Program-made: the position numbers and the translations under genes
Shown: positions 8,021 through 42,570 of the stretch, in pieces
Position numbering within the stretch: position 1 is the first letter of the stretch
Layout: every line of letters starts with the position of its first letter
NCBI RefSeq assembly: GCF_029873635.1
Contig: NC_080422.1
Location: forward strand, 15,587,549 to 15,651,548
Origin: Malania oleifera
Taxonomy: Eukaryota; Streptophyta; Magnoliopsida; Santalales; Ximeniaceae
Direction: 5' to 3'
Length of the DNA stretch: 64,000 bases
Notes under the pieces: generated by a model
What the model was told of the DNA's origin: nothing
Seen by the model: the letters and a program-made list of their open reading frames with translations, nothing else
Databases searched by the model: none

Positions 8021-9076
8021 ACTTCTCTGCGAGGCAATATGGAAAAAAAAAAAAAGGCTTGTCTTTTTCTTGGGAATATGATGTAAACATTTGAAAGGGC
8101 TTTTGACTCTCTCTCTCTCTCTCTCTCTCTCCACAACAGTATATGGCTTCATTTATAAAAACTAGCATTCCATCTTTTCAATTTTGGCTTATTGCCTTAA
8201 ATTTGCTCAGCAAAAAGGGACAAAAACTCCCTAGCAACATTCTTTTTGGGGCAGGAATTGAATTTTTTCAGTAAAATGGTTTACGGCCTTGAATTCATGG
8301 CAGCTGGTGGGGTTTGGTTTTTTGTTTGGAGAGAAGAATTCTCATACTCTGTAATTTTGTTTTAAATGAAATTCATACTTCTCTGCGAGGCAATATGGAA
8401 AAAAAAAAAAAGGCTGTCTTTTTCTTGGGAATATGATGTAAACAGTTGAAAGGGCTTTTGACTCTCTCTCTCTCTCTCTCTCTCCACAACAGTATATGGC
8501 TTCATTTATAAAAACTAGCATTCCATCTTTTCAATTTTGCTTATTGCCTTAAATTTGCTCAGCAAAAAGGGACAAAAAACTCCCTAACAACATTCCTTTT
8601 GGGGCAGGAATTGAATTTTTTCAGTAAAATGGTTTACAGCCTTGAATTCATGGCAGCTGGTGGGGTTTGGTTTTTTGTTTGGAGAGAAGAATTCTCATAC
8701 TCTGTAATTTTGTTTTAAATGAAATTCATACTTCTCTGCGAGGCAATATGAAAAAAAAAAAAAGGCTGTCTTTTTCTTCGGAATATGATGTAAACAGTTG
8801 AAAGGGCTTTTGACTCTCTCTCTCTCTCTCTCCACAACAGTATATGGCTTCATTTATAAAAACTAGCGTTCCATCTTTTCAATTTTGCTTATTGCCTTAA
8901 ATTTGCTCAGCAAAAAGGGACAAAAAACTCCCTAACAACATTCCTTTTGGGCAGGAATTGAATTTTTTCAGTAAAATGGTTTACAGCCTTGAATTCATGG
9001 CAGCTGGTGGGGTTTGGTTTTTTGTTTGGAGAGAAGAATTCTCCTACTCTGTAATTTTGTTTTAAATGAAATTCAT
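8021..9076. repeat. Tandem triplication of about 350 bp in the SULTR3 3' flank
   Basis: Three direct copies: 8021-8376, 8377-8729 and 8730-9076 (356, 353 and about 347 bp). Each begins ACTTCTCTGCGAGGCAATAT, contains a poly(A) run, a (CT)n tract of different length (longest in copy 1, shortest in copy 3) and GGTTTACRGCCTTGAATTCA, and ends AAATGAAATTCAT. The last copy ends exactly over the stop codon of the sulfate-transporter gene (TGA at 9073-9075 on the minus strand), so the duplicated unit is that gene's 3' untranslated/downstream sequence. Confidence 0.92.
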
Positions 9077-12000: not shown

Positions 12001-13330
12001 GAATCCTACCAGAGTAGCCTTTGAAAGGAAATCAATCACAAAGCCTAACCTGCAATTCATCAAAACAGTATCACTTAAAACTCAAGAAACAAAGAAAGAA
12101 AATGGGAAAAAAATAATTTCGAATATTTAGTGAAGATTGGAATGTGCATAATACCGTAGTAGGCCCAAAGAAGCCTGAAATAGACCTGCAAAGAAGGTGG
12201 CAGTGAAAGCAAGTTTAAGATACAGAATTGGGTCTTCAGCAACATGAACTGCTTCTCCAAGCATGCTGCCCATGACCAGAGATGCTATTGAGACTGGACC
12301 AACGCCAAGGTGCCTAGAGCTCCCCAGGATAGAATACATCAGAGGTGGCACAAAACTTGAATCTGCACAAAAACCCATTTCAGTGAAGCCATTAGAGCAG
12401 AGAAAAGTAAACTATTTGTGTTGATCTATAACTTGGATTCAGTAAGAAAGCAGAGTTGGTATGGTATTTGATACTAACAGAGTCCAACTATTGGTGGCAA
12501 ATTTGCAAGCTTTGCATAACTAATTCCCTGCATACAGAAACCCAAATCAGAAAACAGAAGGAGATTATTGAAAAACAATCTCTGTTTTTCAGAATTGGAG
12601 TCAATGTCAGAATAGAACCTTTCTTAATAGCAATATAAATATTAGAGAATTAAAATTTACCCATGATTTTTCCCCATGTAAACTTGGAAAACAGAGCAAT
12701 ATAAATCGTTTTGATAAACTTGGACAAAATTACGTGAAGTTTTGTCAAAATTCGAACAATTTCAAATTTGTCCTCAAAAATTGTGGTCTCAAACGAAACA
12801 AATAAATTTTACTCACAGGCTGTCCCTTGTATAAACCAATGAAACAGAGCCACACCCCTCCCCTCCCCCCAAATCCCATTAAAGGAAGTAATGAATGTAA
12901 AACCAGCGTGATTCATTCAGGTTCATTTCTCAATTGAAAACCGAAAGCCCATTGATGATGGGATTGGATCGGAATGGAGGCTGACCTGTGGGATCGCGAG
13001 GCTTGCAATGGTGAGGCCAGAGATGAGATCAGACCTGAGGAGATTGAGAGAGTAAGTGGGAGCCCATTGGAAGATGGGGAAGAAGTACTGAAGGGCCAAG
13101 ATGAATTTGGTGAAGTAAGGTTGGTTCTTGAATTTGTGGAGAGGGTCATCGTGGAAGAAGATCTCAGAGACCCTGTGCTTGAGTTTCTGAGCAGTGGTTT
13201 TGGTGGGAGGGAGGCAGACTCTGTGTCTGTGAATCTCCTCCACCGGACGAGGAGGAGGAGGAGGATGAGGCGCCGTTGCTGTGGCCTCTGAAAATGAATG
13301 GTCTTCCACTCTGTAAGAGTTTCCACCCAT
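9073..13330 (-). CDS. SULTR3;3: Group-3 sulfate transporter, SULTR3;3-like (SLC26/SulP family)
   Basis: Predicted multi-pass membrane anion transporter with a cytosolic C-terminal STAS domain; SULTR3 members move sulfate, often at plastid or other internal membranes. Thirteen exons (minus strand): 13330-12986, 12527-12479, 12362-12155, 12049-11878, 11691-11626, 11512-11399, 11289-11173, 10978-10852, 10750-10464, 10344-10154, 10046-9961, 9837-9761, 9216-9073. They total 1983 bp, or 660 residues, normal for the family, and all phases join. Landmarks: [14 protein letters not shown] in the N-terminus, [48 protein letters not shown] at residue 358, and STAS from about 520 with DTSGI at 593-597. 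VGPVSIASL favours SULTR3;3. ATG 13330 is the first downstream of the TATA box. The intron 4 donor is GC. The exon 13 acceptor has a CAG alternative adding one Gln. Confidence 0.93.
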
Positions 13331-13395
13331 GTTCACTTCCACTCTCCCCAAAATACCACCCAAGTTTTTGCAAAACACTTGTATGCATGGGGCTC

Positions 13396-20290: not shown

Positions 20291-21224
20291 TGATTCACTC
20301 AAAAAATGAGCAGCTCGGAAGCTATCTCAAGTATAAGAGTTCTGTTGTGTAATATTCAGCCCAAATGCTATATCGTTTTCTCAGGGAATGCTGTTTAATC
20401 CCAAATTTTACATTTTTTTAATTGAAATTAAAAATTTACTGAACTTAGTTTAGATTTGGGGTTTTTAAGATTGTTTGAGATTTTCTTCGACAAATTAAAC
20501 GAACACGCAAATTAAACCCTAATCCTAGCATGCACTGAATTAAATAACAAGAACGAAAAACTTACGTCTAATTAGGCAAACATCGAAACATGCGTTAAAC
20601 TTTGAAATAGAAACTAAAGACGGTCACTTTAGCACTTAATTAAAGAACGCAATAATGGAAACTCAATCAAACACAAACGCGAGCGATAAAAACCAAACCT
20701 TTAACAAATTCAAGAATTTAAATCAAGACCAAACTTAAACGCAATACAAATTTAACGCTTTAATAACCTAAACGATAACTGAATATGATAAAAATGAAAA
20801 CTTTGATAAGGCTAGCCCTAAACTAAATCGAGCTTCAATCAAAAATTAAAATTTAAAAAGGTCAACTAATTTAATTTCTAAAAATAAAAAAAAAAATTTT
20901 ATTTTTGTATTTTGTTCTTTTTTTTTCTTTTTCTTTTGAACCAAATCGGAACCCTACTTAATTAATTAAATAACTCGAAGTATTAATTAAATCTACTGCA
21001 AAATTTAATTGAGAAGATAAATAAATAAATAAACTGTAATAATAATAAAACACCCTAAACAATTATTCAAAATCTAAAATTTTCCAATAAACCTCAATAA
21101 AAGAAAATAACAATATTCAGTTAAAAATAAAAAGAGGAAAGAAGAGAGAGAAAGAGAGAGATCAGAGTCGCGATAGAGAGGGGGACTTCTGGTTTCGGTT
21201 GGCAGCAGGTGGCCGCAGTAGTTG
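20291..21224 (-). repeat. Athila-type LTR fragment, copy 1
   Basis: Begins TGATTCACTC and runs parallel, at high similarity, to 41491-42430 (shared words AAGCTATCTCAAGTATA, CAGGGAATGC, ATTAAATAACAAGAACGAAA, CACCCTAAACAATTATTC). The second copy adjoins an Athila-like PBS and gag, which fixes the identity and minus orientation. Broken at 21225 by family A copy 2; part of 25105-25952 may be its continuation. Confidence 0.7.
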
Positions 21225-22133
21225 TGTAGTAACTTGAAAAATTAAAAATGATTAAAATAATTTTAAAAAATAATAAATAAAATAAAATTAGATTAATTAT
21301 TAATTAATTAATTAATTATTATTTAATTGAATTAATAAATTAATTAAACGTTATTTAATTGAATTAATTAAGTAAATTATATGATGGGTATATATATATA
21401 TATAAGGATAGGGTATATATATATATGGTCAAAGTAATAAGTATATATATATATATAAAATATAAAATAATGTAAAGATAGAATTAAATGAATTGGAAAA
21501 ATCCAATTCAATTGCCTTACCTCTCTAGAGCCTTTCATGCTCAAATCTTTCAGTTCTCCTACTCTCTCATGCTGGTCGCCTTCGTCTCTGTCTTTGTCTC
21601 TCAATTTCTTGACGAATTTGCGGTGAATCGGGAAACAAAAGGTGCCATTGAATTCCTAACTCCACCACCGATATTTCTACTAGAGCAGATTTGTCGTGGG
21701 AGCGGCATAGACACTATTCCTGGAGTAAGACAATTTTTTCCTAATTCCTCAATTTTTCTTTAAATCTACTGCTAAATCAACGATCAGGCACCACCATGTG
21801 GTTTTAGTCGCGAATGTCGTCATTTTGGCGTAAGTAAATTTCTAATTTAAGTTTTCTAGGTCCTACTCCAAAGCGAGAGTGAGATTTGGGGAATTAAGTA
21901 AATTGGTTATATTTGAGGGTATAACTATTTATTTGGAATTTATGGCCATATGAAATATTAAAATATTATTTTATTTAGGATTAATTTAATGGAACTAAGA
22001 TTTTTGATTTAGGATTCAGGTGAGTGCCACATGCTTTTTTTGAGATCCTGCCAGTGTAGTTCAGGAAGTCATGTAAGGGGAAAAATATATATTAAATCAG
22101 AATTTTTATGAATTTAATGTAAAATGAATTGTG

Positions 22134-25952: not shown

Positions 25953-28294
25953 TGTAATACCCCAACCCCGAAGGGTTTGTGATATTTACTTTTTACTATT
26001 GATTTACAGCGGAAGCAAATAAACTCAATTATTATTAAACCAGAGCACTAATTATCCATATTTCAATCATTTATTTCAAAAGAAGAAAAATTACATAAGC
26101 CTAAATATCTAGCATCATACTAATATCTATAATCAAGCTTCATTTTTTTTTTTCTATTCTATTCCCACCCGCATGCTTGCTATGCCTGATTTCCGATATG
26201 TCCTTCAGAGTTATCTGAAATGTAAAAATATGATTAGGGTGAGACGATACTCAGTAAATAATATTATTATTAGTGTGTGGCCAAAATGAGTTTTTTAAAA
26301 TTTTATAAAATAATATTTAATACTATAACTTTAAAACTGCTTCTAGAATAAATATAAATTTAAAAATTTCTGCATAAAACTTTTACCATCAACTATATCA
26401 GTAAAATTTAATAACCATATACAGTGACCGTTAAATTAAATTTTTAACTTTAAAACTATAAAAATATTTAACTATATACATACATATATTTTTCCTTATA
26501 CGTTTCCTTTAAATCGTTCTTTAGGCACAAGAATGACCCTTTTCATATAAACTTATACTTTTCCTTTAACTCATTAATAACTCTGTACACGTAATTAAAT
26601 ATGTATAAACATATATTGTAAAAACCACCCTTAGCCCTGTTTACCGTAAGTCATGTTTACCCCCATGATTGGGTTGTGCGGTCCGAAAACTGGATTTAGC
26701 TGGCTGGCCGACCAAACTAAATCAACGTACGTAAACTTTAAGTGATATTTTCCTTATTAAGTTCTGGTTCGGAACTAGGTGTGCACCTAGGAGAAATCCA
26801 CTAACATAAATAACCGCTCTGTAAACAGTGTGGGTGCACTCTGATTCGTTTAAACTTTAAGCTGCGGTACCAAGCATTTGTAACTTTGAACTTGCTTTGC
26901 CATAAGAGATTTTAAAACCATCTTATTATAATTTATGTAATTTAAAATAATCTCGTGAAAATCTCATTTTTACTCATATTTTCATGAATAATGCAATATA
27001 GAAATAAATTCATGCAACACAATTTTTGTGTTAAAAATATATATAATTTTTTTTAAATAGAAAAAAATGATAAAAATTTACTCGAGGGGATTATAACATT
27101 TCTTAACTCAAAAATAAATGCAAGTATATTAAAGATAGAACTGGTATAATTAAATATACGTAAAAATAAACTCATGAAAATTTTATGGAACTAAGTAACA
27201 TAATTGAAATTTACTTACAAAATAAACTCGGGTATGAATTTAAAATAAAAAAGAAACTAACATAATCAAATTTACTTACCTTCTTCTTTTACCTTGTGCT
27301 ACGAACACAATAATTATCTCTAAGAAATGAGATCGGAAAGAGTGGGTGAGTGAGAACTTACTCAAAAATTTTCTCTCCACCACAAATTCTTTCACTCACT
27401 AATCCTTCTCTTCCTTGGAAAAATTGTTGTAAAAAATGAAGGTTGAGAGCTTCCTATTTATAGGAAAATTTTGGGGAAGAAATGAAATTTATAAAAGTAT
27501 GGGGAGATAGGTGAAATTATATTTTTTAAAAAAATTAAAGAATGGGCAAGGGATGGGTAAGGTATGGGTTGAGTATGGGATGGGGATGGAGGCCATGTGG
27601 GAGTACTTGCCACCATTCCCATTAAATAAATTTTTAATTAATTACTTACCTAATTAATTAATCAATTAGTTAATTACTTATTTTATTATTTTATTATTTT
27701 TCTTAATCATTATTATCATTATTATTACTTTTAAACTATTTTTAGTATTTATTTATTTTATTATTTATTTTTGAATAAGAATTAAATTTGAATTTTGAAA
27801 ACTCATGTCCACATGATCCTGTGAGCCCCACACAACTTCGAGACCCAAATGGATCCTACGTAACTCCAATAATTCTCATACGATTTTATGAGCCCTACAC
27901 AACTTTGAGACTTGTGTAAACCTACACACGACTTCGAGACTCATGTGGGCCCCGCACAGTCTTGTGGGCCTCGCATAGGATACTTATATTATTATTATTT
28001 TATCATATATTTTTACAAATTATGTCAGTCAAAATATTATTTTATGTACTTATTCATGTATATAAACAGTGTCTACCCTGTTTTATCTTTTGAAATTCAA
28101 TTTTGACCAGGTTGACCTCTAGGGAGCGACTGAGCCGCAATGGTCTCTGAGCACTTGTTAAGACAAGGTCTTTCTTAGGCATCAAACATGGAATCAAGGA
28201 TCCTACAGAAAAACACTTCTGTATTGATATTAACTTAATGACCATTTTTATTATTATTGTGCTTTAATTGTATATATATTTTTGGGTCATCACA
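25953..28294 (-). repeat. Tekay-type LTR 1 (3' LTR of the gene-carrying unit)
   Basis: Plus-strand ends TGTAATACCCC and GGGTCATCACA; 2342 bp. It aligns over its whole length with 31350-33679 and 38421-40733. The minus-strand TATA CTATAAATAGG lies near 27462. Next to it, at 28295-28310, TTCTCCCCTCC is the polypurine tract in complement, followed by the element-type sequence AAAATTTCGTCCTCGAAATT. Upstream U3 (27798-27975) has GTGGGCCCC-type palindromes. Confidence 0.92.
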
Positions 28295-28520
28295 TTCTCC
28301 CCTCCTTATAAAAATTTCGTCCTCGAAATTTTCTAATTTAAAATGAGTGTTGTATAATTGGTTGCGCTATTTGAAAGAGTAAATTGATTAACGATTTGAC
28401 TAAGTCTTAGAATAGATTGAGGATCAATTTGGCGAAGTATTTTATTTTGAGAATTGGAGTGTGAATTGTCGGTCTAATAGGGGTTGAAATGGTAGAGAAA
28501 TTAAGAAAATGTGGAAAAGG

Positions 28521-28566
<46 letters not shown>

Positions 28567-28618
28567 CATGTCCTATAAATTAAAAATATATGTATAAAAA
28601 TGAAACGAAATCTGGCAT

Positions 28619-29311
28619 TTAGAGCCTTAGATCAACGTCAACATCTATCGAAGTGCTAGCGGTGTCACTGCTAATCGCCTGGGTTCTTTCTTGATAGAGT
28701 TGACCTCTTGTAATGTCGCCGGCTTGGGTTAGAAAAAGGGAGAGATTGCCTGTTTGTTCGGCGAAGGAGGAAGAGCTGCCCTCTTCCCGAGTTATTGGTG
28801 GCCCGTATATGAGTCTCAATGTGCATCGGATTTCCTTGCAATGGGGAAGTAGGCTAGCATTATCCGAAACCCTTAGTGTGGTGACTGCAATATTGCCATT
28901 GTAAGGGGTGTGGCTCATTGATGTGATATTAGTTGTAAGTTTCATAGTTGGAATATTCTCGATAGGAAAGAGGGTTGGAAGAATGGCAAGGGCACTGCTC
29001 GGGGTTGTAGTGGCGGAGGAGGTAAGATGGATAATTGATGGGGCAGTAGTTGAGATAGTGGCTTCTCCAACTGATCCTCGCCTACACCTACGGTTCTCAA
29101 ACGAAAAGCATATATTTCTCAGCTCGATTGGACCATACTGTCGGAGTTGTGCTGCAAGCAAGATAGTACGATCCATAGAAGGGAGTTCCCCTTGACTGCT
29201 GTGGAAGGCCTCCTCTAAAATCTCCAACTGTGCCTTACTGGGTTTCCATCTTTGGATCGACGATCTAGTGCTGCTCTCAGCAACTTGGGGAGTTGGGTGA
29301 TTTGGCAACAT
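28619..29311 (-). CDS. WUSCHEL-related (WOX-like) homeobox protein, divergent
   Basis: Single-exon frame of 230 codons from ATG 29311. Residues about 19-79 form a WUS-type homeodomain: RWKPSKAQLEILEEAF (21-36) for helix 1 and QLRQYGPIELRNICFSFENR (55-74) through helix 3, compare LRQxGKIEGKNVFYWFQN in WUS/WOX proteins. Asn51 and Phe49 of the homeodomain are kept, but invariant Trp48 is Ser and Gln50 is Glu. The rest is low-complexity Ser/Thr-rich. NLSLFL (189-194) loosely resembles a WUS box (TLxLFP), and the acidic/Leu end DVDVDLRL resembles an EAR-type tail. WOX proteins are nuclear regulators of stem-cell and organ patterning; this one may be altered or non-functional. It lies within a Tekay-type internal region in element orientation. 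Confidence 0.6.
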   Translation of the reverse strand: MLPNHPTPQVAESSTRSSIQRWKPSKAQLEILEEAFHSSQGELPSMDRTILLAAQLRQYGPIELRNICFSFENRRCRRGSVGEATISTTAPSIIHLTSSATTTPSSALAILPTLFPIENIPTMKLTTNITSMSHTPYNGNIAVTTLRVSDNASLLPHCKEIRCTLRLIYGPPITREEGSSSSFAEQTGNLSLFLTQAGDITRGQLYQERTQAISSDTASTSIDVDVDLRL

Positions 29312-29430
29312 TTTCGAGTAATGAGACAACTAAGAGACAAGTTGGGAAGAGCTAATCACTGCAAACCGAAATGTGATTGTTCAAGATGATAGAAAGCTGT
29401 GATGCTTAGAGTTTGAGAATGGCAGACCCT

Positions 29431-29437
29431 TTTTATA
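29431..29437 (-). promoter_or_regulatory. TATA box of the WOX-like gene
   Basis: Minus strand CCTTATAAAAAGGG (29440-29427), about 120 bp upstream of ATG 29311, with no other ATG seen between a start site about 30 bp downstream and 29311. This supports 29311 as the start and suggests a host-type promoter of its own. The 80-bp array begins immediately upstream. Confidence 0.6.
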
Positions 29438-29444
29438 AGGGAAT

Positions 29445-29930
29445 GGCCGCGTGTTATGGAAATCGAGAGAGAGCGACGTGTGCTGCGAGAATCGAGGGAG
29501 AGCGACTCGTGTCATAGATATCGAGCAACGTTTTGCACAAATTGAGGGAGAACGATGTGTGTTACGAGAATCGAGAGAGAACGACGCGTGTCACGAATAT
29601 AGAGCACGCGTTTTGCAAAAATCGAGGGAGAGCGACATGTGCCGCGATAATCGAGAGAGAGCGATGCGTGTCACAGATATCGAGCAACGTGTTTTGCACA
29701 AATCGAGGGAGAACGACGTGTATTTCGAGAATTGAGAGAGAGCGACGCATGTCACGGATATCGAGCGATGCGTTTTGCAAAAATCGAGGGAGAACAACGT
29801 GTGTCGCAAAAATCGAGAGAGAGAGAGTGATGCGTGCCTCGAGTGACGCATTTTTCAAAAATCGAGGGAGAGCGATATGTTTCGTGAAAATCGAGCGAGC
29901 AACACGTATTGCAAAATTTGCGGACTCAAG
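29445..29930. repeat. 80-bp tandem array upstream of the WOX-like promoter
   Basis: Five to six units with TTTTGCA anchors at 29531, 29611, 29692 and 29773 and TTTTTCA at 29851 (spacing 80, 81, 81, 78). Each unit holds AAATCGAGGGAGARCGACRTG, then AATCGAGAGAGAGCGAYGCG, then TATCGAGCAACG. GA-rich with many CpG. Open frames through it on both strands are repeat artefacts. Confidence 0.9.
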
Positions 29931-29989
29931 GTTCTTTTTATGTTTCTACATCTTTATTAATGTTTTAACTAGAATTAATTTCATCCTTA

Positions 29990-30165
29990 GGTCACCACTT
30001 GGGTGGGTGGCCTAGTGGTAAGGAACCGGCCGTGCATCCATGTGATCGCGGGTTCGAGTCCCCACTATGTTCAAGTAGTCTCATGCCCTGGCCTTGCTTC
30101 GGGGGTAAGTGAGCTATAGCTGATGATTTCCACCCATAAGGCCCTTTTTTTTTTTTGTTTTTTAC
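29990..30165 (+). mobile_element. tRNA-derived SINE
   Basis: Pol III A box TGGCCTAGTGG (30008-30018) and perfect B box GGTTCGAGTCC (30051-30061), 32 bp apart, are followed by a tRNA-unrelated body and a T-rich tail (about 30147-30172). There is no acceptor-stem pairing of a functional tRNA, so it is a SINE rather than a tRNA gene. Exact ends are uncertain. Confidence 0.75.
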
Positions 30166-31051
30166 TCAAGAGTACCTCTTTTATATATATTCCATTATTA
30201 TTATTATAATTGTAATAATTATTATTATTATATTAGATCAAATATATGTTGGACGTGTTTGGTCGATTGATGATTTGACATTTGTTAGTTATTTGAAGGA
30301 AATTAGTTAATTTTTATATTACTTTCATTAATGGAATTTTTACTAAATAAAGTTTTTTTTTTTTTATATAGAAAAATTTAAGTTGTATTAACTTTTATAA
30401 ATTTATACAAAATTACAGATTTCATCAAAATTTGTATTTGTAAATCAAACTTGGATACTTGATGGAAATTGAATATGCAATGGGAAAAAAAAATAGATAT
30501 ACATATTTAACTTGCACATGCTAAGAGATTATATATATATATATATATATATATTTGAATTTAAATATAATAAGTAATATTTAAATTTTATTTAATTCCT
30601 TATAAACTAATACAAAATTAAAATTAAAGATTTTGTCAAAATATATATTCCTAAATTAAGCTTGACTGTTTTGTTGATAACTAAATATGTAATGTAAAAA
30701 TACATATTCATATCCAACTTATATATGCAAAGAAATTTTGGGTAAATTCAGATTTCATAATAGACCATTTGTTCATATCTATTTGTATGTGTAGCACTTC
30801 TAAACTCAGTAGGGTTTAATGTGTTATTTCTTATATATTTAGTAAAAATAATAACAGTGAAAATAAATAAATCTCAGATATTATTATATTATTATATTTA
30901 TATATATATAAATTTTAAATTATTAATGCATCTGACAATTAATTATGAATCATCAATATGGGTATGTGTTTTTACAAACATAAATAACATATTTAAATTA
31001 ATTAACGTGTCTTCAATAATACTATCATTTTTCTTAGAGAATTTATGATTA
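30166..31051. other. AT-rich filler inside the Tekay-type derivative
   Basis: No coding sequence. Contains (AT)n at about 30534-30554, many poly-A/T runs and two loosely similar blocks (about 30390-30480 and 30600-30720) that look like an old duplication. Confidence 0.6.
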
Positions 31052-31117
31052 TTACTTGTCCTTGGGAGCCTTCACGTTAATCTCATTTCTTCTAATGCTA
31101 CTATCTTTAGGATCCAT
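31052..31117 (-). pseudogene. Truncated gag start (21 codons)
   Basis: ATG at 31117 opens MDPKDSSIRRNEINV and stops at TAA (31054-31052). The gag of the neighbouring complete unit starts MDPRNNNVSVEGNE at 38235 at the same distance from the LTR, so this is the remaining beginning of gag. Directly downstream, homology to the element ends and foreign sequence begins. Confidence 0.7.
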
Positions 31118-31349
31118 TCTTAAACAATGATCAAACGTTATTTTAAAATCATAAATCTATTATTAACGTATAATAATATGACAAACTAAAATAATTATTC
31201 TAAACTACCCAATCCTACCCAAATCATGTTTTACACCTAAGTTCTGGTAAAATCTATATCTTAGAGTATGCAGAACCTATATCCTATACTCTGATAAAAT
31301 TACTTCTTTAAAGTCTACAGAACCTATAACCTATTGCTCTGATACCAAA

Positions 31350-33679
31350 TGTAACACCCCAACACCGAAGGGTCTGGGATATTTACTTTTTACTATTGAT
31401 TTACAGAGGAAGCAAATAAACTCAATTATTATTAAATTAGAGCACTAATTATCTATATTACAATCATTTATTTTAAAAGAAGAAAAATTACATAAGCCTA
31501 AATATCTAGCATCATACTAATATCTATAATCAAGTTTCATTTTTTTTTCTATTCTATTCCCACCCGCATACTTGCTATGCCTGATTTCCGATATGTCTTT
31601 CAAAGTTATCTAAAATGTAAAAATATGATTAGGGTGAGACGACACTCAGTAAGTAAATAAGATTATTATTAGTGTGACCAAAATGAGCTTTTAAAAATTT
31701 CCTAAAATAATATTTAATATTATAACTTCAAAACTGCTTCTAGAATAAATATAAATTTAAAAATTTCTGCATAAAACTTTTACCATCAACTATAACAGTA
31801 AAATTTAATAACCATATACAATGACCGTTAAATTAAACTTTTAACTTTAAAACTATAAAAATATTTAACTATATACATACATATATTTTTCCTTATACGT
31901 TTCCTTTAAATCGTTATTCAGGCACAAGAATGACCATTTTCATATAAACTTATACTTTTCCTTTAACTCATTAATAACTCTGTACACGTAATTAAATATG
32001 TATAAACATATATTGTAAAAACCACCCTTAGCCCTGTTTGCCGTAAGTCATGTTTACCCCCATGACTAGGTTGTGCGGTCCGAAAATTGGACTTAGCTGG
32101 CTGGCCGACCAAACTAAATCAACGTACGTAAACTTTAAGTAATATTTTCCTTATTAAGTCCTGGTCCGGAACCAGGTGTGCACTAAAGAGGAATCCACTA
32201 ACATAAATAACCACTCTGTAAATAGTGTGAGTGCACTATAATCCGTTTAAACTTTAAGCTGTGGTACCGAGCATCTGTAACTTTGAACTTGCTTTACCAT
32301 AAGGGGTTTTAAAACCATATTATTATAATTTATGCAATTTAAAATAATCTCGTGAAAATCTCCTCTTTACTTATATTTTCATGAATAATGCAACGTAAAA
32401 ATAAATTCATGCAACACAATTTTTGTGTTAAAAATATATATAATTTTTTTTTAATAGAAAGAAATGCTGAAAATTTACCCGAGGGGATTAGAACATTTTT
32501 TAACCCAAAAATAAATGTAAGTATATTAAAGATAGAATTGGAATAATTAAATATACGTAAAAATAAACTCATGGAAATTTTATGGAATTAAGTAACATAA
32601 TTGAAATTTAATTACAAAATAAACTCGGGTATGAATTTAAAATAAAAAAGAAACTAACATAATCAAATTTACTTACCTTCTTCTTTTACCTTGTGCTACG
32701 AGCACAATAATTATCTCTAAGAAATGAGATCGGAAAGAGTGGGTGAGTGAGAACTTACTCAAAAATTCTCTCTCTACCACAAATTCTTTCACTCACTAAT
32801 CCTTCTCTTCCTTGGAAAAATTGTTGTAAACAATGAAGGTTGAGAGCTTCCTATTTATAGGAAAATTTTGGGGAAGAAATGGAATTTTTAAAAGTATGGG
32901 GAGATGGGTGAAATTATATTTTTTAAAAAAATTAAAGAATGGGCAAGAGATGGGCAAGGTATGGGTTGAGTATGGGATGGGGATGGAGGCCATGTGGGAG
33001 TGCTTGCCACCATTCCCATTAAATAAATTTTTAATTAATTACTTACCTAATTAATTAATCAATTAGTTAATTACTTATTTTATTATTTTATTATTTTTCT
33101 TAATCATTATTATCATTGTTATTACTTTTAAACTATTTTTAGTATTTATTTATTTTATTATTTATTTTTGAATAAGAATTAAATTTGAATTTTGAAAACT
33201 CATGTCCACATGATCCTGTGAGACCCACACAACTTCGAGACCCAAATGGATCCTACGTAACTCCAATAATTCTCATACGATTTTATGAGCCCTACACAGC
33301 TTTGAGACTCGTGTAAACCTTCATATGGCTTCGAGACTCATGTGGGCCCCATACAGTCTTGTGGGCCCCACATAGGATAGTTATATTATTATTATTTTAT
33401 CATATATTTCTACAAATTATGTCAGTCAAAACATTATTTTATGTACTTATTCATGTATATAAACAATGTCTACCCTGTTTTATCCTATGAAAATTCCATT
33501 TTGACCAGGCCGACCTCTAAGGAGCGACTGAGCCGCAATGGTCTCTGAGCACTCGCTAAGACAAGGTCTTTCTTAGGCATCAAACATGGAATCAAGGATC
33601 CTAACCGAGAAACACTCTCGTTTTGATACTAACTAAATGACCATTATTATTATTCTTTTTTTTTTTTTGGGTTATTACA
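31350..33679 (-). repeat. Tekay-type LTR 2 (shared middle LTR)
   Basis: Plus-strand ends TGTAACACCCC and GGGTTATTACA; 2330 bp. Its left side adjoins the PBS of the gene-carrying unit (so it acts as that unit's 5' LTR), its right side adjoins the PPT of the gag-pol unit (TCCTCTCCTCC at 33680, so it is that unit's 3' LTR). Minus-strand TATA CTATAAATAG at about 32860-32851. GGGCCC palindromes in U3 at 33195-33380. Confidence 0.93.
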
Positions 33680-33724
33680 TCCTCTCCTCCTAATTAAAAT
33701 TTCGTCCTCGAAATTTACAAAGAT

Positions 33725-35170
33725 TTAAATGAGTACCTTGTATAATGTTGTGCTTTTATCCGATCCTACTATCGTCGAAAGATGTGAGTATTTCTGGCGT
33801 ATTTCTGCTTCTAGTTCCCATGATGCTTCCTCAATGTCATGGTTGTGCCAGAGCACTTTTACTAGTGAAATCTTCTTTGTGTGCAACTCTTGATCCTTCT
33901 TGTCTAAAATCTGGATTGGTACTTCTTCATATGATAAAGTGTCACTAACTTCTAAAAACTCATAACTTATCACATGAGAAGGGTCTGGAACATACTTCTT
34001 TAACATTGAGACATGGAATACATCATGAATTCTCGATAGTGCAGGCAGTAAGGCAATTCTGTAAGCGACTGGACCAATTTTCTCCAATACCTCGAATGGT
34101 CCAATATACCTGGGGCTTAGTTTGTCCTTATTTCCAAACCTCATGATTCTTTTCATTGGAGTGACTTTTAAAAATATAGTATCCCCCACTTCAAACTCTA
34201 ACTCACTCCGTCGGGTATTCGCATAGCTCCTTTGCCGACTTTGAGCGATTTTTATTTTGTCCCGGATGAGCTTAATTTTCTCAGAGGTCCGTTGTATAAT
34301 CTCGGGACCTAAAATTTGTCGTTCGCCAACCTCATCCCAATATAATGGGGATCGACACTTTCTACCATATAACGCTTCATACGGTGCCATCTCTATGCTG
34401 GACTGATAACTATTGTTATAGGCGAACTCAACTAACGGTAGATACTAAATCCAACTTCCTTTGAAATCCAGTACACAAGCTCTCAACATATCCTCCAATA
34501 TCTGAATGGTTCTCTCTGACTGTCCATCAGTTTGAGGATGAAATGTTGTGCTGAAAGTAAGTCGTGATCCCAAGGCTCTTTGCAAACTCTTCCAAAATTG
34601 TGATGTGAATTGTGGATCTCGATCTGATACGATAGACACGGGCACGCCATGTAGTCTAACTATCTCTTGAACATATAACTCTGCAAGCTTGGTCATAGAG
34701 TAGTTAACTTTGATTGAAATAAAGTGAGCGGTTTTCGTTAGACGATCAACAACCACCCAGATGGCGTTCTGTCCATGAAGTGCTGGAAGTAGCCCAGTTA
34801 CAAAATCCATGGAGATGTGCTCCCATTTCCACTCAGGAATGTGGAGTAGTTGTAGTGGTCCTGTTGGTCTCTGGTGCTCAGCCTTTGCTTGCTGACAAGT
34901 AAGACACTGTTCCAAAAATTGTGCAATCTCCCTCTTCATGTTATTCCACCAAAAAGACTCTCTCAAGTCCCGATACATTTTCGTGCTTCCCAGATGCACT
35001 GTATAAATAGATCGATGAGCTTCTTCCAATATTGTTCTTTTGATATCTTTGTCATTAGGCACACACAATCTAGTTTGGAATCTTAAAACTCCATCATCAG
35101 AGATGTTAAAGTTTCCCTTCAGTCCACTCTGTACCTTACCCATAATCTTCACTAGCTCTACATCTTCCAT
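33725..35170 (-). pseudogene. Tekay-type integrase with C-terminal chromodomain-like region, one nonsense codon
   Basis: First part (35170-34445): zinc-binding HHCC region ([17 protein letters not shown] then [11 protein letters not shown]), then the catalytic core with [17 protein letters not shown] and the Glu in [13 protein letters not shown] at about 34445 interrupts the frame; the same frame continues through YLPLVEFAYNNSY and 34390-33725 (MAPYEALYGRKCRSP, GPFEVLEKIGPVAYRIALLP, ISLVKVLWHNHDIEEASWE). The last block is the chromovirus CR/chromodomain-type tail. It inserts element cDNA into the genome. Apart from the stop the core residues are intact; the domain is out of frame with RT-RNase H. 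Confidence 0.92.
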
Positions 35171-35283
35171 CTGTGCAACCTTAATTTTTCCAGTAAGGTC
35201 TGTTGGATTATCAGATTAGCAATGAGAGCTTGATGATTTCCTTCCACTATTTCCACACCAAATCTTTCCAAGTTCATTATAAT

Positions 35284-37158
35284 TTAATGTTGGGTCACCA
35301 TTGCCGAGATTGATGCATTCATTGACTTTCGACTTAATGCATCTGCTACCACGTTAGCTTTTCCCGGGTGATAGTTGATGACACAATCATAATCTTTGAT
35401 TAATTCTAACCATCTTCTTTGTCTTATGTTTAATTCTTTTTGTGTGAAAAAGTACTTGAGACTTTTATGGTCTGTGAAAATTTCACACCTTTCACCATAG
35501 AGATAGTGTCTCCAGATCTTTAGTGCGAATACCACAGCTGCTAGTTCCAAATCGTGTGTGGGATAATTCTTCTCGTACTCCTTGAGTTGTCGAGAAGCAT
35601 ATGCAATGACCTTCCTCTGTTGCATTAATACACACCTAAGCCCTTTCCGAGATGCATCATTGTAGATCACAAAACCATCTTCTCCTGATGGAATAGTCAG
35701 CACCGGGGTAGTGATGAGTCGTTGCTTTAATTCTTGAAAGCTTTGCTCACATTCATCAGTCCATTCATATTTCATATTCTTTCTTGTCAATCTCATCAGA
35801 GGACCAGATATTTTAGAAAACCCTTCCACAAATCGACGATAATATCCTGCCAGACCTAAGAAACTCCTGGTCTTATGAACATTCTTCGGTCTCGCCCAAT
35901 CCACTACTGCCTCTATTTTACTTGGGTCCATAGAAATACCATCCTTAGATATCACATGCCCTAAGAATGCAACTCTTTCTAGGTAGAACTCACATTTCGT
36001 AAGTTTGGCATAGAGTTTCTTTTCTCTTAGTATTTTGAGTACTAGCCTCAAATGGTTCTTATGTTCCTGGGGGCTTTTTGAATAAATCAAAATATCATCA
36101 ATGAAGACCACCACAAATTGATCTAGATATTCACAAAAAACCCTATTCATAAGGTCCATAAAGGCAGCAGGAGCATTGGTCAGTCCAAATGACATGACTA
36201 AGAATTCATAGTGACCATATATCGTTCGGAATGCAGTCTTTGGATCATCTTCTGATTTGATTTTCACTTGATGGTACCCTGATCGGAGGTCAATTTTAGA
36301 GAAGACTTGTGTTCCTTGGAGTTGATCAAACAAATCATCTATGCGAGGTATTGGGTACTTGTTCTTAATGGTCACTTTATTTATTTCCCGATAATCAATA
36401 CACATTCTCATCGATCCATCTTTCTTTTTAACGAACAGTACCGATGCTCCCCATGGTGATACCCTGGGTCTGATGAATCCTTTGTCCAGTAACTCTTGTA
36501 ATTGTTCCTTCAATTCTTTCAATTCTACCGGTGTCATTCTGTATGGAGCTTTAGATATCTGTGTCATCCCTGGTAGTAGGTCTATAACAAACTCGATTTC
36601 ACGGTCAGGAGGTAGCCGAAGTAAATCCTCAGGGAATACATCCGAGAATTCCCTTACTATTGGGATATCCTTGAGCTTTAATTCTTCCTTTGGGGCCTCC
36701 ACTACGCATGCTAGGTACCCTTGACATCCATTCAAAAGTAATCTCTTTGCCTGGATAGCTGACAATATTTGTGGTAAAGGGCATACACGAGTTCCATTGA
36801 ACTTGTATTCTTGCTCTCCAGGAGGTCTAAACACCACCTCCTTATTATAACAATTTATACTAGCATAACTAGAAGCTAGCCAGTCCATCCCAAGAATTAT
36901 GTCAAACCCGCGCATACTAAATACTACCAAGTTAGCCGGTAGTATTCTTTCCTCAACATAAATTGGGTAACCTTTAAGTATTTTTCTACATACTATCGAG
37001 GTTCCCGTTGGTGTAACCACAGATAACTCAGTTTCTAATGGTTGAGTCTCTACCCCACATATTTTAACATAAGTTGCAGATATAAAGGAGTGTGTGACTC
37101 TAGAATCAAATAATACTACTACTTTCTTGGAGAATATGGGAATAATACCTGTCACCAC
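35284..37158 (-). pseudogene. Gypsy/Tekay protease-RT-RNase H
   Basis: One open frame of about 624 codons. Protease: [14 protein letters not shown], where retropepsins have DSG, so the catalytic Asp remains but the Gly is lost. [36 protein letters not shown], the catalytic FIDDILIYS and [11 protein letters not shown]. RNase [49 protein letters not shown]. It ends at a stop about 110 bp before the integrase frame, and the frames differ by one. RT and RNase H catalytic residues look intact, which points to a fairly young copy. Confidence 0.95.
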
Positions 37159-37189
37159 ATCACTAGTATTTTCGGCATCTCCTGGAGTG

Positions 37190-38235
37190 AGGGCATAGAC
37201 ACGTGCCTGAGCGGTGTTCTGTTGATTGTTGCTTCGAGGTGCCTGGTTGCCTCCTCTTTGTTGATTTGGGTTGTAGTTGTTTTGTGGGCATTCTCATTGC
37301 ATGTGACTAGGTTTACCGCATCGATAACAGACCCCTAATCCCACTCGACACTCTTCCCCATGTAATTTGTTGAATTTTGTACAAGGGGTGCCTTGTGCAT
37401 TGTTTGGGTTTCTCGCTGTTTGCCCTCGCCCCACATTGTTGTTGTTGTTGTTGTTGCTCCTTTTCTAAGGTCCTTGATTTCTACTAGATTAAAACCCTTA
37501 TGACATGGGCCTCTTTCTCTGCTCAGATATCTCCGCACTCTTTTGTAGACTTTCTTCTGCCTTCGTTGCTTTGTTTACCAACTTGGAGAAGTCTTTGAGT
37601 TCGAATACTGTTACCATCTCATAAATCCTTGAGTTTATGCCTTCTTCAAAATTTTGGGCCTTCTTTGATTCATCTAGAACCAAATATGGTGCAAACCGGG
37701 ATAATTCAATGAATTTTGCTGCATATTGTTGTACGTTCATATTTCCCTGTTTTAACTCCAAAAACTCCTTCGCCTTTACATCTTTGGTGGTTTTGGGGAA
37801 AAATCGTTCAAAAAATACTTCCTTAAAATGCTCCCACGTAAGGACGGTTGGATTCGGTCCTTCCTCCAGGAGTAACTTTTTTGAGTTCCCCCAGCGTTTG
37901 GCCTCACCAATCATTTTATAGGCAGCATATAGCACCTTCTATTCGTCCGTACAATGAAGGACTTGTAGTATTTCTTCCATTGCTTGCATCCAATCTTCTG
38001 CAGCAATTGGATCGACTTTTCCCTCAAAAGTCAGAGGGCGCATTCGATTGAACTGTTCAACCGTACAACCTTCATGGGTTGGTGGATCATTCCGATCCTT
38101 AAAGTTCCGCAGAAATTCCTTCATGACTTGTGCCACATCACGCAACACTGTAGTAGCATTGATGTCTTCTCTATTGCAAGTACTCGTATTATTCTCGTTT
38201 CCTTCAACACTCACGTTGTTGTTCCTTGGGTCCAT
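37190..38235 (-). pseudogene. Tekay-type gag with CCHC zinc knuckle, interrupted
   Basis: ATG 38235 opens MDPRNNNVSVEGNENN; 98 codons to a stop, then the same frame continues at 37935 with MLYAAYKMIGEAKRWGNSKK and the retrotransposon gag core (LTWEHFKEVFFERFFPKT, LELKQGNMNVQQYAAKFIEL) to a stop at 37498. A third segment, in another frame, carries the zinc knuckle CYRCGKPSHMQ, stop, ECP (about 37345-37285), a CX2CX4HX4C motif broken by TGA. Two stops and a frameshift disable it. Gag forms the particle that packages element RNA. Confidence 0.9.
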
Positions 38236-38420
38236 TCCGAGGGAAAGGACTAGAGTTATTTTAAAATCATAACCTCATCTTTAAAATTTAATCAAACTTA
38301 TAGGCAAAAGAAAAACATCCTAATTTACCCGTTCTTACCCACATCATGGTTATGCCTATGCTCTGGTAAAATTATTTCTTAAAGTCTATAGAACCTATAA
38401 CCTATTTCTCTGATACCAAA

Positions 38421-40733
38421 TGTAATACCCCAACCCCGAAGGGTCTGGGATATTTACTTTTTACTATTGATTTACAGCGAAAGCAAATAAATTCAATTAT
38501 TATTAAACCAGAATACTAATTATCCATATTACAATCATTTATTTTAAAATGAGAAAAATTACACAAGCATAAATATCTGGCATCACACTAATATTTTTAA
38601 TCAATGTTTATTTTTCTATCCCCACCCGCATGCTTTCTAAGCTTGATTTCTGACATGCCCTTCAGAGTTATCTGAAATAAAAATATGATTGGAGTGAGAC
38701 GACGCTCAGTAAGTAAATAAGATTATTATTAGTGTGTAGTCAAAATGAGCTTTTAAAAATTTCGTAAAATAATATTTAATACTATAACGTCAAAATTTCT
38801 TCTAAAATAAATGTAAATCTAAAAATTTCTACATAAAACTTTTACCATCAACTATAACAATAAAATTCTATAATCATATACTATCACTGTTAAATTAAAC
38901 TTTTAACTTTAAAACTGTAAAAATATTTAATGATAAATATATATATACTTTTCCTTATACATTTTCTTTAGATCGTCATTTAAGCACAAAGTATTCTTTT
39001 CATGTAAACTTACACTTTTCCTTCAAATCATCAATAACTTTGTACACGTAATTAAATATGTATAAACATATTTTGTAAAAACCACCCTTAGGCCTGTTAG
39101 CCGTTAGTCATGTTTACCCCCATGACTGGGTTGTGCGGTCCGAAAACTGGACTTAGCTGGCTGACCGACCAAACTAAATCAACGTACGTAAACATTAAGT
39201 GAGATTTCCTTATTAAGTCCTGGTCCGGAACCAGATGTGCACTTAGGAGGAATCCACTAACATAAATAATCACTCTGAAACAGTGTGGGTGCACTCTGAT
39301 CCGTTTAAACTTTAAATTCCGGTATTGAGCATCTGTAACTTTGAACTTGTTTTGCCATAAGGTGTTTTAAAACCATCTTATTATAATTTATGTAATTTAA
39401 AATAATCTCGTGAAAATCTCCTCTTTACTCATATTTTCATGAATAATGCAATGTAAAAATAAATTCATGCAACACAATTTTTGTATTATAAATATATATA
39501 ATTTTTTTTTAATAGAAAGAAATGCTGAAAATTTACCCGAGGGGATTAGAACATTTTTTAACCCAAAAATAAATGTAAGTATATTAAAGATAGAACTGGT
39601 ATAATTAAATATACGTAAAAATAAACTCATGGAAATTTTATGGAACTAAGTAACATAATTGAAATTTACTTACAAAATAAACTCGGGTATGAATTTAAAA
39701 TTAAAAAGAAACTAACATAATCAAATTTACTTACCTTCTTCTTTTACCTTGTGCTACGAACACAATAATTATCTTTAAAAAATGAGATCGGAAAGAGTGG
39801 GTGAGTGAAAACTTACTCAAAAATTCTCTCTCCACCACAAATTCTTTCATTCACTAATCCTTCTCTTCTTTGGAAAAATTGTTGTGAAGAATGAAGGTTG
39901 AGAGCTTCTTATTTATAAAAAAATTTTGGGGAAGAAATGAAATTTATAAAAGTGTGGGGAAATGGGTGAAATTATAATTTTTTTTAAAATTAAAAAATGG
40001 GCAAGGGATGGGCAATGTATGGGTTGAGTATGAGATAGGGATGGAGGCCATGTGGGAGTGCTTGCCACCATTCCCATTAAATAAATTTTTAATTAATTAC
40101 TTACCTAATTAATTAATCAATTAGTTAATTAATTATTTTATTATTTTTCTTAATCATTATTATCATTGTTATTAATTTTAAACTATTTTTAGTATTTATT
40201 TATTTTATTATTTATTTTTAAACAAAAATTAAATTTAAATTTTAAAAACTCATGTGGGCCCCACATGGTCTTGTGGGCCCCACACAAATTCGAGACCCAA
40301 ATGGATCCTACGTAACTCCAATAATCCTCATACGATTTTATGAGCCCTACACAACTTCAAAACTCGTGTAAGCCTCCACACGACTTCGGGACTCATGTGG
40401 GCCCCACACAGTCTTGTGGGCCTTGCATAGGATACTCATATTATTATCATTTAATCATATATTTTTACAAATTATGTCAGTCAAAACATTATTTTATGTA
40501 CTTATTCACGTATATAAATAGTGTCTACCCTGTTTTATCCTATAAAATTCTATTTTAACCAGGCAGACCTCCAGGGAGCAACTGAGCCGCAATGGTCTCT
40601 GAGCACTCGCTAAGACAAGGTTTTTCTTAGGCATCAAACATGGAATCAAGGATCCTAACAGAGAAACACTTTCGTTTTGATACTAACTAAATGACCATTA
40701 TTATTATTCTTTTTTTTTTTTTGGGTTATTACA
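38421..40733 (-). repeat. Tekay-type LTR 3 (5' LTR of the gag-pol unit)
   Basis: Plus-strand ends TGTAATACCCC and GGGTTATTACA; 2313 bp. The PBS, complementary to initiator-Met tRNA (TTTGGTATCAGAG on the minus strand, 38420-38407), lies next to it. The TATA region (about 39905-39920) is degenerate compared with the other two LTRs. U3 palindromes CATGTGGGCCCCACATG and TTGTGGGCCCCACA lie at 40250-40300 and 40390-40430. The right flank GATAG does not match the TCTGA flank at 25948, so the array is not one simple insertion. Confidence 0.92.
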
Positions 40734-40739
40734 GATAGT

Positions 40740-41327
40740 GCCTGATCCAGTTCCATGCTAAAGAGTTCTCCATTGCACATGGTATGGACAAAGTGCTTGC
40801 AATCAGGGGTAATGATAGTATAAAAATAATTAACTAACCTTCATAATTCAAACCCGTGATGTGGAAAAGTACTTAGCAGATCCTTGAATCTCTCCCAGTA
40901 AGCTCAAAAAGTCTTGTCACCCTTATGCATAAACTGAATAATCTGTTCTTGCAAAATTAGGCTCTCTGTGAGGGACAAAACATATGTAGAAATTCACGTT
41001 CCATAGAAGCCCAGTTAGTGATAGAGTGAGGTCTCAAGGAATTAAACCACATTTGGGCTCTATCATTCAAAGAGACAAAAAATAAACACAGTCTAGTAGA
41101 TTCATGAGTTCTAGCACAAGAGAAAAAAAATTGCAAGTTAACTCAAACTTTGACAGGTGTCTATAAGGGCACTCAGATTCTGTCCCATAGAACTGAGGTA
41201 GTAATGAAGTCCTCTATTGGTTGCATCATGAAATCAAGTTCTTCGTTAGGTAAAATAGTGGAAGATGGTACAGTGGTGTATTGAAGTTGCAAAGAGTCCA
41301 TAAGCGTGCGTGGTGCAGGTGCAGCCA
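40740..41327 (-). pseudogene. Athila-like gypsy gag fragment
   Basis: Minus-strand translation starts MAAPAPRTLMDSLQLQY at 41327 and later, across stops and frame changes, reads LFFVSLNDRAQMWFNSLRPH and ITNWASMEREFLHMF, matching the gag core LxxRAKxWLNSLPPNSIxTW of Athila-type elements. Cut at about 40735 by the Tekay-type LTR. A poly-T/C tract (41340-41405) separates it from the primer site. Confidence 0.75.
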
Positions 41328-41466: not shown

Positions 41467-42570
41467 TTCCCGACAACGACGTCAAAAACTTGACTCACTC
41501 GAAAAATAAGTAGCTCAGAAGCTATCTCAAGTATAGGAGTTCTATCGTGTAATATTTAGCCCAAAGGCTAGATTGTCTCTTCAGGGAATGCGGTTTAATC
41601 CCAAATTTTATGTTTTTCTAATCGAAATTAAAAAGTTACTGAATTCCATTCAAATTCAGGGTTTTCAGGATTGTTTGAGATTTCTTTTGACTAATTAAAC
41701 GAATGCGCAAATTAAACCTTAATCCTAACATGTACTGAATTAAATAACAAGAACGAAAAACCTACGTCTAATCACGCAGACATTGAAACACGTGTTAAAC
41801 TTCGAAATAGAAACTAAAGACGGTAACTTTAGCACGTAATTAAAACACACAATAATGGAAACTCAATCAAACACAAACGCGAACGATAAACACCGAACCT
41901 TTAACAAATTCAATAATTTGAATCAAGACCAAACGTAAATGCAAACACGAACACAACAAAAATTTAATGCTTTAACAACCTAAACGATAATTGAATATGA
42001 TAAAAATGAAAACTTTAATAAGGCTAACCCTAAACTAAATCGAGCTTCAATCAAAAATTAAATTTTAAAAAGGTCAACTAATTTAATTTCTAAAAACAAA
42101 AACAATTTTTTTTCTTTTTGTATTTTGTTTTTCTTTCCTTTTTCTTTTGAACCAAACCGGACCCTACTTAATTAATTAAATAACTCAAAGCATTAATTAA
42201 ATCTACCACAAAATTTAATTGAGAAAATAAATAAATAAATAAACTTCAATAATAATAAAACACCCTAAACAATTATTCAAAATCTAAAATTTTCCAATAA
42301 ACCTCAATAAAAAAATAACAATATTCAGTTAACAATAAAAAGAGGAAAAGAAGAGAGAGACAGAGTGAGAGAGAGAGGTTAGAGTTGCAGTAGAGAGGGG
42401 GATTTCTGGTCTCAGCTGGTAGCAGGTGGGCACAACAGTTGTGCTGGTTTTGCTGGAACAGAAAGGCTTTAGAGTTGCAGCAGATGAAGGTGGAGTAGCT
42501 CCTCGGGTGGCTGTGCAGTAGTTAGAATAGGTTGGTGGCGGTCGAAGCTGTGCAGTAGTCTGGTGGAAGG
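41467..42570 (-). repeat. Athila-type 5' LTR fragment with PBS, copy 2
   Basis: On the minus strand TGACGTCGTTGTCGGGAA (41484-41467) resembles the Athila primer site TGGCGCCGTTGCCGGGGA. The LTR begins on the plus strand at TGACTCACTC (41491) and parallels copy 1 at 20291-21224 to about 42430. The continuation to about 42570 (GTTGCAGCAGATGAAGG, GCTGTGCAGTAGT repeated) is not present in copy 1, which is broken there. Confidence 0.72.

Follow-up and report, generated by a model that had tools for sequence, protein, structure and literature searches.

A WOX-like homeobox gene in place of gag-pol in a high-copy family of LTR retrotransposons of Malania oleifera

Layout of the locus

Positions 25953-33679 of the window, by which we mean the entire 64,000-nucleotide stretch of the Malania oleifera genome analysed here (C6:15587549-15651548), are one copy of a high-copy, non-autonomous family of long terminal repeat (LTR) retrotransposons in which a WOX-like homeobox gene, together with its 5' flank, replaces gag-pol. 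Such a replacement had been proposed in an earlier note on the window, and both the structure of the window and the copies found across the genome of this species, the garlic-fruit tree, bear it out. The cargo-bearing element shares an LTR with an adjoining gag-pol element, and the resulting array comprises three tandem LTRs of one family (A, B and C), all in the same orientation, with the minus strand as the element sense. Counts of fetched copies in the lines below and throughout refer to the 20 copies that were retrieved with their flanks; another 19 were retrieved as stretches of the open reading frame (ORF).

25953-28294 (-): LTR A, the 3' LTR of the cargo element; its U3 (unique 3' region) starts with TGTGATGACCC, as in other cargo copies
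28295-28371 (-): polypurine tract (PPT), 3' untranslated part and last ~10 pol codons, a remnant of the parent element homologous to 33680-33757
28372-28618 (-): 3' flank of the homeobox ORF, matched in all 20 fetched copies
28619-29311 (-): intronless WOX-like homeobox ORF of 230 codons, with many copies in the genome; homeodomain at about amino acids 19-80, WUS-box-like LSLF at 190-193, DLRL at the C-terminus
29312-29448 (-): 5' untranslated stretch, with TATAAAA at 29431-29437, at -126 from the ATG
29449-29905 (no strand): tandem array with 4.5 units of 81 bp (29460-29823), lying upstream of the TATA box
~29985-30160 (+): insert resembling a short interspersed element (SINE) derived from a transfer RNA (tRNA), already part of the founder
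30161-31051 (no strand): AT-rich cargo DNA, matched in 18 of the 20 fetched copies
31052-31335 (-): leader and first 21 gag codons, then a stop; homologous to the leader at ~38190-38420
31336-31347 (-): primer binding site TGGTATCAGAGC
31350-33679 (-): LTR B, shared and, by the mosaic scan described below, recombinant; the 5' LTR of the cargo element, with the C-type U3 start TGTAATAACCC
33680-38420 (-): internal region of the adjoining Ty3-type gag-pol element
35284-37158, 34445-35170 and 33725-34390 (-): pol of this gag-pol element, in three ORFs
38421-40733 (-): LTR C, the 5' LTR of the gag-pol element

The hallmarks of an LTR retrotransposon, namely paired LTRs, TG..CA ends, a primer binding site, which we take to be of the initiator-tRNA-Met type, and a PPT, are all present. 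Beside LTR A, homology to the gag-pol element, covering the last ~10 pol codons and the PPT, reaches ~28371; retention of the PPT end was thus correctly noted earlier, whereas its boundary had been set too short, at 28365. Beside LTR B, homology to the leader and gag start of the gag-pol element reaches ~31077, and the retained leader, primer site and 21-codon gag stub, which ends at 31052, are as the earlier note described them. The 2.7 kb between the end of the leader and the end of the PPT have no match to the gag-pol element, and the only coding remnants of the parent in the cargo element are the 21 gag and ~10 pol codons. Within the cargo, the intact homeobox frame in element sense and the TATA box are present as noted earlier, and the tandem array exists with a unit of 81 rather than 80 bp. 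The predicted SINE stands as an insert shared among copies; ARAGORN and Rfam yield no match for it, and the label comes from tRNA-like boxes recognized by eye. In the window sequence, there is no A-tract between the homeobox ORF and the PPT; a 5' flank and a TATA box are present instead. The pol ORFs of the neighbouring element are of the Ty3 type, with matches to the Pfam domains RVT_1, RNase H, integrase and SH3_Tf2-1; the Pfam chromodomain match is weak (E 0.085), and Tekay is a tentative label.

A high-copy family with a single founder

The assembly that was searched consists of 1,494,336,490 bases in 510 contigs. A 30-base word from the ORF occurs in it 490 times (262 + 228) with up to three mismatches, and the reversed control word does not occur at all. 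The search with the ORF DNA gave 696 first-look candidates, the best 40 of which were scored; all cover almost the full length, with 100% identity for the window itself and 91-93% for the 39 others. The ORF protein gave 1029 first-look candidates and P0001, the protein of Malania oleifera LOC131144967, gave 2318, with 150 scored in each case. These first-look candidates are unconfirmed copies, and the three candidate lists may overlap. The family occupies hundreds of genomic sites, many of them LTR-flanked copies of the cargo.

When pieces of the window were compared by Blast with the fetched copies, LTR matches were found on either side of the leader, cargo, ORF and PPT in 16 of the 20, including three with an incomplete or interrupted 3' LTR (L012, L025 and L027); two others (L023 and L026) have an insertion within the cargo and part of a 5' LTR where the fetched sequence ends, and in the last two (L015 and L019) the 5' part is absent. 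Eleven fetched copies could be examined for a target-site duplication (TSD) of 5 bp, which is exact in eight (L010, L014, L016, L017, L018, L020, L022 and L028), has one mismatch in two (L011 and L021) and is unmatched in one (L024), so other loci do have target duplications of their own. In all 11 copies with both LTRs on the LTR tree, the two LTRs of the same copy are sisters, with a Kimura two-parameter (K2P) divergence of 0.025-0.084. The rate of 1.3e-8 per site per year, which was used in a study on pepper (PMC5664825) and is not calibrated for Malania, translates this divergence to ~1-3 million years. The family has spread by LTR retrotransposition, as attested by LTR pairs, TSDs, primer site and PPT, in the absence of gag-pol of its own; the LTRs, primer site, leader and PPT that are required for copying are all retained.

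The junction between leader and cargo falls at the identical position in 18 of the 20 fetched copies, the other two being without that end, and the junction between cargo and PPT does so in 20 of 20 (21 places, given that L013 contributes two). Because the junctions coincide, the replacement of gag-pol most likely happened once, and the conclusion that it took place in a founder is well supported. The SINE-like insert is matched at 88-94% in 18 of the 20 fetched copies. The array upstream of the TATA box varies between copies and is matched in 19 of 20 (not in L015), and TATAAA is present in 18 of 21 when the window is included.

A second subfamily, of the P0001 type, is represented by loci L048-L052, which have the same layout wherever it is readable. 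Relative to the window type, its ORF has insertions of 9 and 30 nucleotides, both in frame, in all five copies; a further deletion of 7 bases is confined to L051, and the sequence of L052 passes into a run of N. A longer retrieval of the L050 copy (L053) contains a whole element of the P0001 type, with LTR pieces that are 84-90% alike. Residues 60-227 of P0001 match the locus C1:79445174 letter for letter. A 1069-amino-acid open frame at C8:90178040 was considered as a fusion and dropped, there being a run of N at that place in L052. Thus, the capture stands, and the notion of a single capture locus has to give way to that of a family with many copies and two or more subfamilies.

Affinity of the encoded protein

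Against the Pfam Homeodomain profile, the window ORF scores 22.6 bits, just below the cut-off of 22.9. The only PDB sequence matches at E <=1 are the WUSCHEL homeodomain (5.7e-8) and STENOFOLIA. The AlphaFold model, for which the alignment consisted of 42 proteins from a WUS-rich search plus P0001, predicts three helices with a confidence score (pLDDT) of ~94 and a remainder with little order (mean 59.0); residues 124-169, after the homeodomain, form a low-confidence strand-strand-helix arrangement (pLDDT ~48-69). In a Foldseek search with this model, the top 11 matches are WUS or STENOFOLIA (root-mean-square deviation 1.3-3.9; best E 3.4e-3). The Trp-Phe-x-Asn signature of the homeodomain is found in 40 of the 40 ORFs of the first subfamily that were read besides the window, the window copy being an outlier with Ser at the position of the Trp.

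Downstream of the homeodomain, WOX proteins of the WUS clade have the WUS box, with the consensus T-L-x-L-F-P. In the alignment with Malania WUS (P0011), LSLF(P) of the ORF falls on this box and DVDLRL on the EAR-like end; at the WUS-box position, LxLFP is present in 24 of 41 ORFs (shuffle P 0.0017) and LxLF in 39 of 41. In a set of 5.8 billion proteins, a single-sequence and a profile search detected only P0001 at E <=0.01; a different profile search reaches WUS proteins, but its profile included two WOX rows and this result is therefore not independent. Taken together, sequence and model lead us to assign the predicted homeodomain to the WOX type. Malania WUS shares with the ORF the predicted homeodomain fold and the same order of a WUS-box-like followed by a terminal EAR-like motif, although the two are only 26% identical over the alignment, and whereas WUS matches the genome in three blocks (C1:43737543-43739497), which we take for exons, the cargo ORF is a single block without introns.

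Clusters of many partial WUS-like exons occur at C1:44.57-44.82 Mb, C13:48.35-48.53 Mb and on C435, some close to the WUS gene (C1:43.74 Mb) and others distant from it. Most of these exons have 75-87% identity with Malania WUS, and several contain stops. The clusters look like a local expansion of WUS that is independent of the LTR family.

A mosaic LTR

The comparison of the three LTRs that the earlier note had called for shows A and B to be the closest pair (Blast identities: A-B 93.2%, B-C 90.8%, A-C 90.0%). On the LTR tree, A and B form a sister pair (support 0.986), but their U3 starts differ, A beginning like other cargo copies and B like C. In a mosaic scan that set aside 52 sites linking A with C, 196 sites link B with A or C; 128 of these are shared by A and B, and the middle stretch and the U3 start are shared by B and C. 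The mosaic structure of LTR B is significant by permutation (p 0.00025), and outside the stretches common to B and C the K2P distance between A and B is 0.040. The outer 5-mers of the array are unequal (TCTGA and GATAG). Because LTR B is a mosaic, because of the U3 starts and the pairing of A with B, and because the outer 5-mers differ, a model in which the gag-pol element's 3' LTR recombined by crossover with the cargo element's 5' LTR, with LTR B as the shared, recombinant product, is well supported. It is owing to this array with the gag-pol element that a TSD of the window copy itself cannot be demonstrated.

Arrays with shared LTRs exist elsewhere, at L009 and L013, and ORF words lie ~5.4-5.6 kb apart on C6 near 84.61 Mb. 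There, five words in one orientation (C6:84607242, 84612831, 84618418, 84623810 and 84633088), mostly with ~5.5-kb spacing, mark a longer LTR-sharing cargo array, and the scored stop-free ORFs include three of these copies.

Probable selection on the homeodomain

So could the homeodomain protein be maintained by selection? Context-wise neutral rates were taken from the noncoding parts and LTRs of the 20 fetched copies and compared with the counts from 40 ORFs, the window excluded, with a bootstrap over copies. Relative to this neutral standard, silent changes in the homeodomain occur at 1.02, replacements at 0.57 and stops at 0.29, and the ratio of replacement to silent changes (N/S) is 0.56 (0.47-0.67). 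Over the whole ORF, the ratio of stops to silent changes is 0.51 (0.31-0.73). In the C-terminal part, silent changes reach just 0.58 of the expectation, for which the ranking of the sample is the sole explanation we can offer. Two other measures carry less weight: a comparison of shared with singleton changes was strong at first and weakened when more copies were included and mutation classes separated, and the simple dN/dS values (0.67 for the whole ORF, 0.36 for the homeodomain) are distrusted because of C-to-T decay. These sequence comparisons make constraint on the homeodomain probable but not proven, and in the C-terminal part no constraint is visible within the present radiation.

As for the state of individual copies, 17 of the 40 ORFs of the first subfamily that were read are fully open, and eight have a frameshift, one of them along with an in-frame deletion. 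Among the best 150 of the 1029 candidates scored by protein likeness, 112 are stop-free (hand count, window included), and eight of the 150 have an equal score, which suggests that they encode identical proteins. Of the best 150 of 2318 candidates for the P0001 type, 49 are stop-free over the matched ~168 residues (hand count). The order of both lists is biased towards intact copies. The search with the leader scored 39 copies besides the window, 12 of them open, nine with stops and 18 outside the ORF-scored set (matched by hand). Conservation of the TATA box in 18 of 21 copies is close to what we estimate for neutral decay and is not taken as proof of function.

Origin and propagation of the family

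We regard it as highly probable that the findings as a whole are best explained by an LTR family with a captured WOX gene, a helper, an internal promoter and partial selection on the homeodomain. The homeobox gene lies in element sense, so splicing of the element RNA would have removed its introns and left its promoter, which would account for a gene that is intronless and yet has a promoter-like region. Gag-pol relatives whose LTR, PPT and primer site are of the same kind would mobilise the family in trans, much as helper viruses serve oncogene-carrying retroviruses; the neighbouring gag-pol element does share its LTR (91%), primer site and PPT with the cargo element. A gag stub that has an ATG of its own lies ~1.8 kb ahead of the ORF, so that translation from the full-length RNA should be poor and an internal start is favoured; the homeodomain protein would be made from the internal TATA promoter. 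The source copies would be partly selected for an intact homeodomain.

A number of observations weigh against one or another part of this explanation. Past the first 67 bases, the leaders of the cargo element and its gag-pol neighbour are only ~69% alike, and it is only the common LTR and leader that point to a helper. As no donor gene turned up, the case for intron loss hinges on the three-block match of Malania WUS. The Foldseek search with the modelled ORF gave no match at E <=0.001. With regard to selection, N/S is borderline for the whole ORF (0.90 of neutral, 0.79-1.01) and 1.15 (0.97-1.35) for the C-terminal part; the bootstrap over copies ignores their shared ancestry; the selection test shows no difference between internal and terminal branches of the tree; when deamination is set apart, just the homeodomain transversions reach p 0.048; near-fixed differences between the subfamilies in the homeodomain are one silent to six replacement; and the ORFs were sampled in order of their similarity to that of the window, which favours intact copies.

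Alternatively, the gene may be a passive stowaway, mere stuffing that is intact in many copies as these are young and come from intact sources, with a protein useless to the element. We consider this a serious contender, if somewhat short of an even chance: the whole-ORF and C-terminal ratios and the non-significant tree-based test fit it, as does the presence of in-frame stops in 17 of 41 ORFs, roughly the decay expected after insertion, but it sits poorly with the homeodomain values (N/S 0.56, stops over silent changes 0.29 of neutral), with length differences between subfamilies that are all in frame and with the retention of Trp-Phe-x-Asn in 40 of 40 ORFs. At the opposite end, the family may have co-opted a stem-cell homeodomain factor as an accessory protein that raises its own transcription or inheritance, the internal promoter being active in meristem or germ-line cells and the protein acting on host or element DNA. 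This is a speculative proposal that we hold to be rather unlikely; if true, such an element would be the plant counterpart of the oncogene-carrying, helper-dependent retroviruses.

The remaining alternatives concern the structure itself. That a host homeobox locus was trapped between two truncated insertions of one LTR family, the alternative raised in the earlier note, is compatible with the lack of a demonstrable TSD at the window copy, but fails in the face of hundreds of copies, with the same junctions in those that were fetched and mostly with TSDs of their own where testable, and we give it practically no credence. Hardly more plausible is an origin of the three-LTR array by unequal crossing-over of allelic copies of one insertion, or a substitution of the cargo, in place, for one internal region of such an array: LTR-sharing arrays do recur (L009, L013 and the ~5.5-kb spacings), whereas the outer 5-mers differ, A and B pair apart from C, LTR B is a mosaic and the cargo junctions are common to unlinked copies. 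Very improbable, too, is the possibility that the ORF does not derive from a WOX gene, being a chance or unrelated helix-turn-helix frame, as might be suspected from the Pfam score just under the cut-off and the best Foldseek E of 3.4e-3. WUS and STENOFOLIA are the sole PDB sequence matches at E <=1 and the top 11 structural matches, although the model alignment was WUS-rich, LxLF stands at the aligned position of the WUS box in 39 of 41 ORFs, and a profile search reaches WUS proteins, if not independently.

Relation to known systems

Acutely transforming retroviruses carry a host regulator in place of gag-pol, retain the cis signals and require a helper. The Malania family differs in being a plant Ty3-type element.

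Host genes within LTR elements that lack gag-pol have been described for the retroduplicated nucleotide-binding leucine-rich-repeat (NLR) genes of pepper, ~72% of which are of this kind, with lineage-specific amplification and with capture and copying presumably in trans, as we propose here; MADS-box factors inside LTR elements are mentioned as well (PMC5664825). In pepper there are 86-123 LTR-borne NLR genes per species (PMC5664825), whereas the Malania family is built around a single homeobox gene; it has two subfamilies and at least 490 word matches, its junctions coincide, and a TATA box lies inside the element. The maize element Bs1, according to a review (PMC13317346), is likewise an LTR element with transduced host gene sequence, which later became a transcribed and translated chimeric gene; it combines segments of three genes without a full-length ORF, in contrast to one ORF with its upstream region in hundreds of copies. 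Captures of host sequence by intact LTR elements of maize, 425 elements with at least 189 captures (PMC2774510), involve gene fragments at ~two elements per capture, against one capture in very many copies here.

That plant LTR elements can capture host genes is already known from the maize fragments and the pepper NLRs, and it is the beneficiary that is unclear. In the Malania family, a single captured developmental regulator with its upstream region is the only sizeable coding content that was found, and since young, old, open and broken copies occur in one genome, the question of passenger versus tool becomes directly testable. In the accessible texts of the open PubMed Central (PMC) library, there was no description of a family of this size with one captured transcription-factor gene as its coding content, and the combination of 'Malania' and 'WUSCHEL' retrieved no paper from that library; within the searched protein collection, only LOC131144967 (P0001) surfaced from the family. 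Work on WOX annotation, expression and binding in Malania will have to allow for hundreds of homeodomain copies.

Other features of the window

Just outside LTR C, at 40851-40958, there is a sub-threshold match to snoR71, a plant small nucleolar RNA (30.7 bits against a gathering threshold of 40). Two repeats of ~950 bp, 87% identical to each other (20291-21226 and 41491-42443), lie on either side of the LTR array at some distance from it. A 78-bp tandem array of 15 copies, with a higher-order period of 156 bp, occupies 51189-52359, and at 8021-9076 a 353-bp unit is repeated three times head-to-tail with 97% likeness, a recent tandem triplication. On the minus strand, 12923-13378 might be the first exon of a sulfate transporter, with a weak Pfam match (E 0.12).

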